This document shows, piece after piece, positions 3,959 to 61,925 of a stretch of 64,000 nucleotides of DNA. Each line of letters opens with the position of its first letter. The stretch's first letter is position 1. The notes under the pieces were generated by a model. That model was not told the DNA's origin, did no database searches, and saw only the letters and a program-made list of their open reading frames with translations. This stretch comes from an uncultured Lachnospiraceae bacterium. GTDB taxonomy: Bacteria > Bacillota > Clostridia > Lachnospirales > Lachnospiraceae. The position numbers and the translations under genes are program-made. The stretch covers positions 1-64,000 of the forward strand of contig CANREG010000002.1 in NCBI GenBank assembly GCA_947629565.1, written 5' to 3'.

Positions 3959-3997
3959 TAATTCCCATACAGAGCGGTCTGTGTGGGAATTTTTTTG
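3959..3997 (+). terminator. Rho-independent terminator after dnaJ
   Basis: aattcccatacaga-gcgg-tctgtgtgggaatt followed by a T-tract. Confidence 0.88.
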
Positions 3998-4073
3998 CAA
4001 AAAGGAGGCGGGTGTGATATAATAATATTCAATATGCGCCTTGAGCTTTGATAGGAAGGAAAGTTGTGCGAAA

Positions 4074-5021
4074 ATGAAAGAGTCAGAGAAGATTTCTTTT
4101 GTAATTCCCTGTTACCGTTCTGAAAAGACGGTTATTCTGGTGGTTGATGAAATTGAGGAGACCATGGGGCAAAGAAAGGAATTAGATTATGAAATTATAT
4201 TGGTGAATGACGGGTCTCCGGATAACGTCTGGGATGTGATTGCCAGACGGGCAGCAGATGATAGTCATATTACTGGTATTAATCTTGCCAGAAATTTCGG
4301 ACAACATGCGGCTCTCATGGCTGGATATAACTATTGCACCGGTGATTATGTGGTTTCCCTGGATGATGACGGGCAGACTCCGGCCAATGAAGTATTTTCA
4401 TTAATGGACGAGTTGGAAAAAGGTTATGATGTAGTATATGCATCATATCCGGAAACGCATCAGAACTGGTTTCGGCGGTTGGGTTCGGATTTTGCTAGTA
4501 AAACATCAGCATATGTTTTTGGCACGAAGGGAGACGACAGAAAGGGAAGCAGTTTTTTTGTAATGCGCAGATATATTGTAGAGGAGATAGTCCGATATGA
4601 ACATTCTTTTCCTTATGTTGCAGGATTGATATATAGAACCACGACAAATATTGGTTTTGTGCAGGTCAATCACAGGGAGCGTTTTTCCGGCACCTCCGGA
4701 TACAGCCTTAGGTCTTTGATTTCCCTGTGGCTGAATGGGTTTACTGCATTTTCAGTGCGGCCGTTGGAACTGGGGGCCTATGCGGGTTTTGGCATGGCGA
4801 TTGTGGGATTTATATATGCTATTTATACGATTATACGACGTTTGTTAAATCCGTCAATTATGCAGGGCTGGAGTTCGCTGATCTCTATTATGTTGATTGT
4901 CGGAGGGATTATTATGATTATGCTGGGCTTGATTGGCGAATATATTGGCCGTATATATATATGCATTAATAACTCTCCCCAGTATGTGGTAAAAGATATA
5001 TGTAAAAAGGATAAAATGTAA
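4074..5021 (+). CDS. Family 2 glycosyltransferase, CsbB/GtrB/DPM1-like (predicted polyprenyl-phosphate sugar transferase)
   Basis: KISFVIPCYRSEKT...EIILVNDGSPDN...DDDGQTP GT-A motifs plus two C-terminal TM helices; ATG 4074 preceded by aggaaggaaag. Confidence 0.88.
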   Translation: MKESEKISFVIPCYRSEKTVILVVDEIEETMGQRKELDYEIILVNDGSPDNVWDVIARRAADDSHITGINLARNFGQHAALMAGYNYCTGDYVVSLDDDGQTPANEVFSLMDELEKGYDVVYASYPETHQNWFRRLGSDFASKTSAYVFGTKGDDRKGSSFFVMRRYIVEEIVRYEHSFPYVAGLIYRTTTNIGFVQVNHRERFSGTSGYSLRSLISLWLNGFTAFSVRPLELGAYAGFGMAIVGFIYAIYTIIRRLLNPSIMQGWSSLISIMLIVGGIIMIMLGLIGEYIGRIYICINNSPQYVVKDICKKDKM

Positions 5022-58062: not shown

Positions 58063-59070
58063 TCAGTGTGTAATGTCAAGAAAACGCTTTGCTGTGGTGC
58101 CGATGGCGTGTTCGTTATACACAAAACCAACGGTGCGTTCCGGGATTTCATAGTCCATGGGAATTTCTATGACCTGGCCGCTTTCAATGTAGGAATCCAC
58201 AAATTCCCGCACCACACAGGCGACGCCCATGCCAATGGCGGCAAAATCAATCAGCAGATCCATATTGTTAATCTCTAAAATCTGTCCCGGCTGGATGCGG
58301 TGCTTTTCTATATAGGCGTCGATGTATTGCCGGGATATATTTCCTTTGTCTAACAGCATGAGATTGGATTTTTCCAGAATCTCTTTTTCTGTAAAGGGGA
58401 TATCGGAACTCTTTTTCTTATCTTCTTCCGCAAATAGCAATAGACCGGTCATAGGTGGAAGCGGAGAAGCCCCGGCTCCTGTTTCACTGTCGGAACGGGA
58501 GCTTCCTTGATCGGCGTCGTATTCCCGCAAAATCAGGTTATCCAGATAAAGCCTTGTGGTGACAAAGGTGTCGTGGATTTTTCGCAGAGGCGCAAAATGA
58601 AAGTCTCTGTCTAATTTCGTCTCACAGATTAATCCAATATCAATTTTATCTGCCTTAAGAAGCTGGATGGTCTCAAAGGTGGGATTACATTCAATGGAAA
58701 CCTTGACATGGGGATTTTCCCGGATAAAATCCTGCAGGTACGACAGCAGCACATATTTGCAAAGCGAGGTGGAAACGCCGATGCGGAGCTGTCCCATGCC
58801 CAGATTTTTAATGCGTTTTAAGGTGTTTTCCGCCATGTCGATGGAGGCAAAGGCAGTTTCTAAGTGTTGGTAGAGGGTCTTACCTTCCTCCGTCAGCTTT
58901 ACGCCTTTTTTGCTTCGGATAAAAAGCGTCTGCCCAAGGGAATGTTCTAATCCGGTGATGGATTTGGAAACAGCGGGCTGGCTGATATAAAGATTCTCTG
59001 CCGCCCGGCTGATATTGCCGGTTTTTGCGGCTTCATAAAAAATGCGGTAATGGTTTAAATTCTGTTCCAT
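58063..59070 (-). CDS. LysR-family transcriptional regulator
   Basis: N-terminal HTH HYRIFYEAAKTGNISRAAENLYISQPAVSKSITGLEHSLGQTLFIRSKKGVKLTEEG. Confidence 0.94.
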   Translation of the reverse strand: MEQNLNHYRIFYEAAKTGNISRAAENLYISQPAVSKSITGLEHSLGQTLFIRSKKGVKLTEEGKTLYQHLETAFASIDMAENTLKRIKNLGMGQLRIGVSTSLCKYVLLSYLQDFIRENPHVKVSIECNPTFETIQLLKADKIDIGLICETKLDRDFHFAPLRKIHDTFVTTRLYLDNLILREYDADQGSSRSDSETGAGASPLPPMTGLLLFAEEDKKKSSDIPFTEKEILEKSNLMLLDKGNISRQYIDAYIEKHRIQPGQILEINNMDLLIDFAAIGMGVACVVREFVDSYIESGQVIEIPMDYEIPERTVGFVYNEHAIGTTAKRFLDITH

Positions 59071-59243: not shown

Positions 59244-59550
59244 TCTGTCTTTTTGTAATTTGGAGTTGCATTATAAAAACAGATAACATAAATGATAGTT
59301 ATTATAAATTTAAATATCTATACAATAAAATTATATTATATCAATACAATTATTTTTTCAAGTCCGGTTAATGGGACACTTATTTTGATACAATGAATTT
59401 ATCAAGAAGTTAGATTGAAAAATTAAACCTGTACTTTGACAACTGACGATGGCTAAATAAGTCTAATTTACTTTTGCATAAGAATGTTTTTCATTCAAGG
59501 ATAATTTTAGGTTGCCTAAGTGTTGACGGAAGATTATAATACAAGGAGGA

Positions 59551-60519
59551 ATGGCTATGGGGAAACAGGAGAATATTGTAGTTCATTTTTTGTCGAGGGA
59601 TGACCGGTTCGCAGATTTGTTTAATGCGGTTTGTTTTAATGGGGAGCAGGTGATTGATGAGAAGGCGCTCAGGCCATGGAACGAGACTTACCGGACAGTG
59701 GTTAAGGATCGTACAGGGATGGATGTGATTCGCAGGGAACGGGATATTTCCAGAGTGGTAACGTTTGGAGACACAAAGCTTTTGCTGATGGTTTGCTGTG
59801 TGGAGCATCAGGAACATATTAATTACTGTATGCCCTTTCGGAGCATGATGTACGATTGTCTGGAATATTCGGATCAGGTGAGCCGGGTACAGTACCAACA
59901 TACACAGAGGAAGGACCTGTCAGGGGATGCGTATCTGGGACGTTTTGCCAAGGAGGATAAGCTGATTCCCGTGATAACGCTGATTTTCTATACGGGAGAC
60001 GACAAGTGGGACGCCGGCAGGTGTCTGTGGGATATGCTGGATATCGGGTTTCCGGATTTGGTGCGCCCCTATATTGGGAACTGGCCCCTTAATCTGGTAG
60101 AGTTTCAGAATATGGGAGATACAGAAGGGTATCGTTCGGACCTGAAACTGGTGTTAGATATTCTAAAGCACCGGGATAGCAAAGATGATCTGTGGAATTT
60201 TATTAATCAGAATGTACAATATCGTAATCTGGAAGCGGATACCTATATGATGATATCTAAGTTTATGAAGATGGATTTGATTGTAGATTCAGAGAATTAT
60301 GAGAACGAGGAAGGTGGGATTGATATGTGTAAGGCAGTACAGGAGATTTTTGAGGAAGGTCAGATGAATGGAAGGATAGCGGGAAGAGAAGAAGGAAGAG
60401 AAGAAGGAATACGCCTGGCAAAGAGGATATTTGAGAGAAGGTCAGCCGGAGAGGATATTGAGGAGATAGCGAAAGAGGAAGGTTTGGATATAGAATATGT
60501 CAGATCCATTCTGCTATAG
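59551..60519 (+). CDS. Rpn-family recombination-promoting nuclease/putative transposase-like (PD-(D/E)XK)
   Basis: 322 aa; VTFGDTKLLLMVCCVEHQEHINYCMPFRSMMYDCLEYSDQV...RKDLSGDAYLGRFAKEDKLIPVITLIFYTGDDKWDAGRCLWDML; C-terminal REEGREEGIRLAKRIFERRSAGEDIEEIAKEEGLD. Confidence 0.8.
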   Translation: MAMGKQENIVVHFLSRDDRFADLFNAVCFNGEQVIDEKALRPWNETYRTVVKDRTGMDVIRRERDISRVVTFGDTKLLLMVCCVEHQEHINYCMPFRSMMYDCLEYSDQVSRVQYQHTQRKDLSGDAYLGRFAKEDKLIPVITLIFYTGDDKWDAGRCLWDMLDIGFPDLVRPYIGNWPLNLVEFQNMGDTEGYRSDLKLVLDILKHRDSKDDLWNFINQNVQYRNLEADTYMMISKFMKMDLIVDSENYENEEGGIDMCKAVQEIFEEGQMNGRIAGREEGREEGIRLAKRIFERRSAGEDIEEIAKEEGLDIEYVRSILL

Positions 60520-60541
60520 AGGATTGGGTGCAATCAAGGGA

Positions 60542-60572
60542 TTGAATACTATGTATGAATTTATGTTATAAT
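60542..60572 (+). promoter_or_regulatory. Candidate promoter upstream of leuC
   Basis: ttgaat (60542-60547) - 19 bp - TATAAT (60567-60572); a second candidate, extended -10 TGcTATACT, lies at 60612-60620. Confidence 0.45.
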
Positions 60573-60659
60573 ATGTATTCTATATATATATTTTAATTAT
60601 AAATAGGATTATGCTATACTGTGTATGAATTTAATCAATAAGTAAAGGAGAGAATGGTT

Positions 60660-61925
60660 ATGGGAATGACTATGACACAGAAGATTCTTGCTGCCCATGC
60701 AGGACTTCCCTCGGTAGAAGCAGGCCAGTTGATTGAGGCAGATTTGGATTTAGTATTAGGAAATGATGTGACAACGCCGGTAGCCATCCATGAGATGGAG
60801 AAATTTAAGACAGATAAGGTGTTTGACAAGGATAAAATCGCTATGGTGCTTGATCATTTTACGCCGAATAAGGATATTAAGAGCGCAGAGCATTGTAAGT
60901 GTGTCAGGGAGTATGCGGATGCCCAGGAGATTACCAATTTCTTTGATGTGGGAGAGATGGGGATTGAACATGCGCTGCTTCCGGAGAAAGGCTTGATTGT
61001 TGCCGGAGAGACCTGCATTGGCGCAGATTCCCACACCTGTACCTATGGCGCATTGGGAGCATTTTCCACCGGAGTGGGTTCTACGGATATGGCGGCCGGA
61101 ATGGCAACCGGGAAGGCGTGGTTCAAGGTACCCTCTGCGATTCAGTTTGTATTGACTGGGAAACCAAAGAAATGGGTCAGCGGCAAGGATGTTATTTTAC
61201 ATATTATCGGCTTGATTGGTGTAGACGGCGCCCTTTATAAGTCGATGGAATTTGTAGGAGACGGTATTGCCAATCTTTCGATGGACGACCGTTTTACCAT
61301 GGCGAATATGGCCATTGAAGCAGGGGCCAAGAATGGAATTTTCCCTGTGGACGATAAGACGATTGCTTATATGAAGGAACATTCCAAGAAAGAGTATAAG
61401 GTCTATGAAGCCGATGAGGATGCGGTATATGATGAGGTGTATACCATTGATTTAAGCGCTTTAGAGCCTACTGTGGCGTTTCCGCATTTGCCGGAGAATA
61501 CCAAGCCAATCAGTCAGGTTCCGGATATTGCCATTGATCAGGTGGTGATTGGTTCATGTACCAATGGACGGATTGAAGATTTGCGGATTGCCGCAGAGGT
61601 ATTGAAAGGAAGACATTGTGCAAAGGGCCTCCGCGTAATTGTCATTCCGGCTACCCAGGCAATCTATTTACAGGCAATGGAGGAAGGCTTGCTCAAGATT
61701 TTTGTGGAAGCAGGGGCAGTTGTCTCTACTCCAACCTGCGGTCCATGTCTTGGCGGACATATGGGAATCCTTGCGGCAGGGGAAAAAGCAGTGGCCACAA
61801 CTAACCGGAACTTTGTAGGGCGCATGGGACATGTGGATTCTGAGATTTATCTGGCTTCCCCGGCGGTGGCAGCAGCTTCAGCGGTAACCGGTAAGATTTC
61901 CTGTCCATGCCAGTTAGAGAATTAA
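60660..61925 (+). CDS. leuC: 3-isopropylmalate dehydratase large subunit
   Basis: [94 protein letters not shown]. Confidence 0.95.

Follow-up and report, generated by a model that had tools for sequence, protein, structure and literature searches.

A probable toxin-antitoxin system of the RpnL/RpnS type within a single gene of an uncultured Lachnospiraceae bacterium

Introduction

The closest described systems to the gene analysed here are the rpn genes of Escherichia coli, which comprise RpnAL/RpnAS (yhgA), RpnB-E and RpnP2 (Zhong et al. 2023, PMC10327210; Kingston et al. 2017, PMC5350276). A sequence-only reading of the DNA had noted that E. coli rpn genes make a short C-terminal product from an internal start, and this product is indeed real and published (PMC10327210). 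In its crystal fold RpnAS forms a dimer, in which the long first helix connects two three-helix bundles, and the four-residue repeats of RpnS proteins begin 8-20 residues after the methionine (PMC10327210). An rpn gene of C. difficile, when tested in E. coli, was shown to make a short product as well (PMC10327210). The RpnL/RpnS class, a phage-defence arrangement, has been known since 2023 through published work that includes this C. difficile gene, and the gene described here very probably adds one member to it.

We analysed a window of 64,000 nucleotides from an uncultured Lachnospiraceae bacterium (GenBank assembly GCA_947629565.1, contig CANREG010000002.1, positions 1 to 64,000), to which all coordinates refer unless another locus is named.

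Results

An intact rpn gene lies beside leuC

An intact 322-codon ORF extends from 59551 to 60519 on the + strand, with its stop codon ending at 60519. Its product matched the Pfam model PF04754 (Transposase_31, 'putative transposase, YhgA-like'; E=6e-9, 36.2 bits, cut-off 21), which assigns it to the COG5464/Transposase_31 (YhgA-like) Rpn proteins, and scored 18.8 bits with TIGR01784, under the cut-off of that model (52.1). One homologue, carried by plasmid pSRC7, is annotated as belonging to the Rpn family. The ORF has two candidate full-length starts, of which ATG 59557 is more likely than ATG 59551 because an AAGGAGG Shine-Dalgarno (SD) sequence ends 7 nt 5' of it, the SD duplex is stronger (dG -11.2 vs -4.3) and most homologues have a methionine at this position. 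The long form and its surroundings are as follows.

59557 to 60519, + strand: long form of the rpn gene (RpnL-like), 320 aa (322 aa from the start at 59551), with an N-terminal PD-(D/E)XK nuclease domain (Transposase_31/YhgA family) and a C-terminal three-helix domain, both as predicted
59543 to 59549, + strand: AAGGAGG SD of the long form, 7 nt 5' of ATG 59557, duplex dG -11.2
58063 to 59070 and 60654 to 61925: flanking genes, a divergent LysR-type gene and leuC, with the rpn gene between them

Among the genomes of the genus in which both flanks were readable, only the window and its sister species carry rpn between the LysR-type gene and leuC, and at least 14 congeners have both flanks without an rpn match between them. 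This patchy presence at the leuC locus agrees with reports that rpn is gained and lost as a single gene. PADLOC gave no match for the window gene, nor did it for E. coli RpnA; no defence-gene neighbours were noted at the leu locus, where the gene adjoins leuC rather than lying in a defence island.

A good -35/-10 pair (TTGCCT-17-TATAAT, 59512-59549, with the -10 ending at 59540) was also present in the same arrangement in the sister species. The transcription start predicted from it, at about 59546-59549, falls inside the long-form SD, so that the long form may be translated from an mRNA with almost no leader, on which the internal SD described below would be complete. On the other side of the gene, just downstream of it and 5' of leuC, an AT-rich element (ATTCTATATATATATTTTAATTATA, about 60570-60605) is kept upstream of leuC in most genomes of the genus that were read and is likely the leuC control region.

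The nuclease domain retains RpnA catalytic residues and is under purifying selection

Alignment of the family profile with E. coli RpnA using hhalign was colinear (E=2e-6, 18% identity). Four residues of the window protein, numbered from ATG 59557, aligned with RpnA D63, E82, Q84 and R94, mutants of which lose activity or recombination; their columns are 90-98% conserved among 90 homologues. The corresponding codons span 59743 to 59841.

59743 to 59745, + strand: D63
59803 to 59805, + strand: E83
59809 to 59811, + strand: Q85
59839 to 59841, + strand: R95

The position of another essential RpnA residue, D11, is occupied by Glu in the window gene and by Asp in 75 of the 86 homologues that have a residue there. 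We regard this as a conservative departure that could reduce nuclease activity. The gene is also isolated: it stands alone beside leuC and, of the genomes of the genus that were open to checking, only the window genome and its sister have it. Both features might suggest an inactive remnant, a neutral locus that makes both products but whose nuclease is dead. However, the frame and the four catalytic residues are intact, and Asp/Glu exchange is common at metal-binding acidic positions. Furthermore, comparison of the nuclease domain with that of the sister species gave a dN of 0.014 and a dS of 0.190, and the resulting dN/dS of about 0.07 reveals a purifying selection that argues against a dead enzyme. 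We consider an inactive remnant very unlikely, and an enzyme maintained by selection is the reading that we follow below.

An internal start codon precedes the C-terminal domain

The sequence-only reading had proposed an in-frame internal start at ATG 60325 that would give a 64-aa protein. Frame, length, 64-aa translation and preceding sequence proved exact, including the SD stretch and the attgat that follows it.

60325 to 60519, + strand: nested rpnS frame, 64 aa, start ATG 60325, stop codon common with the long form; ATG or GTG at the start in 89 of 90 homologues
60307 to 60318, + strand: internal SD region, gaggaaggtggg, followed by attgat; duplex dG -12.8

The start (60325-60327) is codon 259 of the 322-codon ORF and residue 257 when counted from ATG 59557. 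The same reading called its SD strong, which held far above chance across the family, as described below, but not in the window gene itself, where the dG of -12.8 compares with a mean of -14.1 for synonymous recodings and 68% of shuffles were as good or better. The linker before the internal methionine reads EEGGID, its codons are SD-like anyway and the SD core is AGGTG. Because the SD of the window gene does not exceed what its amino acids predict, the argument for an internal start must rest on the family. For the window gene taken alone, an SD no stronger than its synonymous recodings in a purine-rich region would also agree with there being no internal start at all; in that case the Glu/Gly/Lys codons of a charged linker would give rise to the SD-like stretch incidentally, and the methionine would be kept for structure.

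A scan of 60100-60325 for a promoter before ATG 60325 found no convincing site, promoter-like sites occurring at chance number; E. coli rpn genes have a promoter before the internal start.

A second in-frame ATG (60364 to 60366, + strand), for which an SD of its own had also been proposed, was rejected as a start. Its alignment column is unconserved and mostly E/A/Q/K, the ATG being common to the window and the sister species only, and the SD-like stretch before it (dG -8.6) falls in purine-rich Glu/Gly/Arg codons.

The internal start and its SD are conserved across the family

We collected homologues with their DNA and aligned 90 full-length proteins. The column of ATG 60325 contained 84 ATG, 5 GTG and 1 TTA, a conservation of the methionine equal in degree to that of the catalytic residues. 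All five valines at this column are encoded by GTG, an outcome with a chance probability of 0.4% given that GTG makes up 34% of Val codons. The internal SD had a mean dG of -13.4 kcal/mol, whereas synonymous recodings gave -10.2 and the sequences preceding 624 further in-frame ATGs in these genes gave -3.8. This excess was restricted to about -3 to -12 from the start, and the downstream EG repeats, which are equally purine-rich, were slightly less SD-like than expected. Since kinship inflates shuffle z-scores computed over all homologues, we used cluster representatives: 0 of 2000 shuffles reached the observed SD with 65, 38 or 15 representatives (<60, <40 and <30% identity, respectively). A second sample drawn from named GTDB genomes, which overlaps the first in part of its species, gave 77 ATG, 2 GTG and 1 GTA (n=80) and a mean SD of -13.2 vs -9.1 after recoding, with 0 of 1000 shuffles as good. 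Across 66 genes, the mean dG was -13.6 for the internal SD vs -11.0 for the long-form SD, making the internal SD the stronger of the two on average.

The comparative evidence therefore places an internal start with a ribosome-binding site before the C-terminal domain, and indicates that the family conserves both elements, with selection acting on synonymous sites, so that internal initiation is well supported. The near invariance of the cysteine that follows the methionine does point to some protein-level constraint, as expected if the methionine were kept for structure only; against this stand the synonymous-site signal and the finding that every Val replacement in the first sample is a GTG.

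The C-terminal segment is predicted to form a repeat-bearing three-helix domain

An AlphaFold2 model built on 69 sequences (pLDDT 88.6) comprised an alpha/beta N-terminal domain and a three-helix C-terminal domain, with predicted C-terminal helices at 257-296, 301-308 and 312-319 (numbered from ATG 59557). The internal methionine, residue 257, is the first residue of the predicted long helix, which bears the four-residue repeats.

60349 to 60408, + strand: xxxG units FEEG QMNG RIAG REEG REEG, in the long helix

The window gene has five such units and the sister species seven. They start at residue 9 of the short form in the window, and 8-20 residues past the methionine in all 69 proteins with at least three units, so that length, variable number and placement of the repeats agree with those published for RpnS. 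In one locus (L123; G113:C6 90000-95400), tandem rpn genes have two vs six EKGI-type units and are accompanied by a further partial copy, which we read as an apparent divergence in repeat number between neighbours.

A Foldseek search with the model gave nothing significant and did not list 7TH0. PDB sequence searches produced no significant match to a solved structure; in these structure searches the best PD-(D/E)XK match was a weak one to R.BspD6I2 (2p14). BLASTP of the window short protein against the E. coli short protein was without significance.

The C-terminal segment also occurs as stand-alone copies

The sister species (G020, L031 = L161, an uncultured Lachnospiraceae) has, at the same leuC locus, a long gene 97% identical to that of the window. 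About 100 bp 3' of it lies a separate copy of the C-terminal segment, including SD and ATG, that differs from its parent gene by 5 nt and 1 aa. Independent stand-alone copies adjoin the long gene in L032, L068, L075, L100 and L118, and are found in named genomes at L169, L178 (Blautia schinkii DSM 10518) and L236. In L075, copy and parent are homologous only from the AGGAGG that lies 16 nt 5' of the ATG onwards. In L118, an upstream frame break has replaced the linker by an unrelated peptide while SD and ATG are kept, so that the upstream sequence can matter there only as a ribosome-binding site. Decayed copies were observed in L052, L065 and as one of the two in L075, and the window has no downstream copy in 60520-60653. 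Stand-alone MCKAVNDF-type short frames also flank an rpn gene in L197, at about 2144-2511 and 3969-4129, in a record labelled Riflebacteria.

Copies that start with the SD, or retain it in another frame, are hard to reconcile with an SD-like stretch that is only a coding by-product. They also bear on what the short protein does. Since the comparative data reveal selection for a separate product but not its sign, the short protein might be a structural partner needed by the nuclease, as Cas11 is for Cas10d or Cas8, rather than an inhibitor, and E. coli RpnAL and RpnAS do form a stable 2:2 complex (PMC10327210). However, the E. coli long form cuts and is toxic alone, and the short form blocks it (PMC10327210). 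Furthermore, short-only copies, in some cases differing in repeat number (L032, L075, L118), fit additional antitoxins better than they fit a stoichiometric subunit. A required structural partner thus seems very unlikely to us, and an inhibitory short form is the reading that we retain.

A second nuclease-like family carries the same C-terminal module

Two proteins, encoded by L034 (531-1388) and L036 (1065-1913), matched rpn in their C-terminal part only. Together with L131-L160 they define a second family, of which we compared 29 relatives. Its N-terminus has no Pfam or NCBIfam match and conserves D43...E70-x-K72, as in PD-(D/E)XK enzymes. An internal ATG is aligned in 28 of the 29, the remaining one being truncated before the ATG position, and is preceded by an AGGAGG-type SD (-12.9 vs -7.9 recoded, 0 of 1000 as good). 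According to hhalign, the C-terminal modules of both families are homologous from residue 1 of the short product (prob 98.4, E 5e-15), whereas their N-terminal domains could not be aligned (prob 0.2). In L034, too, a stand-alone copy lies downstream. The conservation of the methionine and of an AGGAGG-type SD behind different linker peptides further argues against the SD being dictated by linker codons and, considering all of these observations, we judge the absence of an internal start to be highly improbable.

In genome G056, members of both families (L137, L056) are about 80% identical at the nucleotide level over part of the C-terminal tail, which suggests an exchange of modules between the two families. 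We consider it rather likely that the nested antitoxin is a portable cassette, made of SD, start, repeat helix and tail, that has been joined in Lachnospirales to at least two nuclease-like proteins whose N-termini show no detectable relationship. If so, the second family would represent a second, undescribed kind of gene-within-gene toxin-antitoxin; a limited literature search found no description of it.

The second family is common in the same genus and family, and only the shared C-terminal domain was found in the window genome. Both families share an MCxA motif at the internal start: the residue after the methionine (60328-60330) is Cys in 83 of 90 rpn homologues and is invariant in alignment A2, and removal of the methionine would expose this Cys as the N-terminal residue of the short form but not of the long form. 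Viral contigs contained one distant rpn and plasmids two rpn homologues, with the second family absent from both, and phages contained four distant rpn homologues.

Discussion

The window gene very probably encodes an RpnL/RpnS-type toxin-antitoxin within one gene. The proposal that Firmicutes have here a counterpart to the long and short Rpn forms of E. coli is supported by the catalytic residues, the selected internal start and SD, the stand-alone copies and a predicted RpnS-like domain. In the mechanism that we propose, the long protein would be a PD-(D/E)XK endonuclease with a C-terminal helical oligomerization domain, and ribosomes would start independently at ATG 60325, by means of the SD just upstream, to produce the C-terminal domain alone (64 aa). 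Through the long helix that bears the repeats, this short protein would pair with the corresponding domain of the long protein, and the paired nuclease would stay inactive until a trigger, probably phage infection, frees it. Because its SD is stronger on average than that of the long form, the short form may be over-produced and so cap the long nuclease as their helices pair. By analogy with E. coli, we infer for the window gene that the two forms assemble into hetero-oligomers, that cleavage by the toxin is thereby inhibited and that the system serves in phage defence.

Evolutionary evidence thus extends RpnL/RpnS, shown experimentally in E. coli and for one C. difficile gene, to gut Lachnospiraceae, where start codon, SD and synonymous sites appear to be selected across a family about 30% identical. 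A synonymous SD excess combined with a column restricted to ATG and GTG provides a cheap general test for genes within genes. Moreover, to judge from the stand-alone and swapped modules, the antitoxin part seems to move and diversify as one piece, and this is relevant to how nuclease/antitoxin pairs gain new specificities.

Compared with known systems, the window gene resembles type I-D cas10d with its internal Cas11d in having an in-frame internal start that would give the C-terminal domain alone; in contrast, Cas11d is a complementary subunit and not an inhibitor, and we claim no homology. Like the C. difficile gene, it would be a Gram-positive rpn that makes a short product from an internal start. 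The short-form copies 3' of the long gene in L031, L032, L075 and L178 recall E. coli rpnE with the downstream rpnES (ypaA) and the rpnCS copies, although the window genome is without such a downstream copy. Unlike E. coli RpnAL/RpnAS, to which it is 18% identical in profile alignment, the window gene has Glu at the D11 position and lies beside the leucine operon, and the MC start motif typical of its family is absent from E. coli RpnAS (MTIAERL). Nevertheless, it shares with RpnAL/RpnAS a colinear homology, equivalent catalytic residues and an internal SD and ATG before a predicted three-helix C-terminal domain, and in both families the xxxG-type repeats vary between close relatives and stand-alone short copies occur beside the gene.
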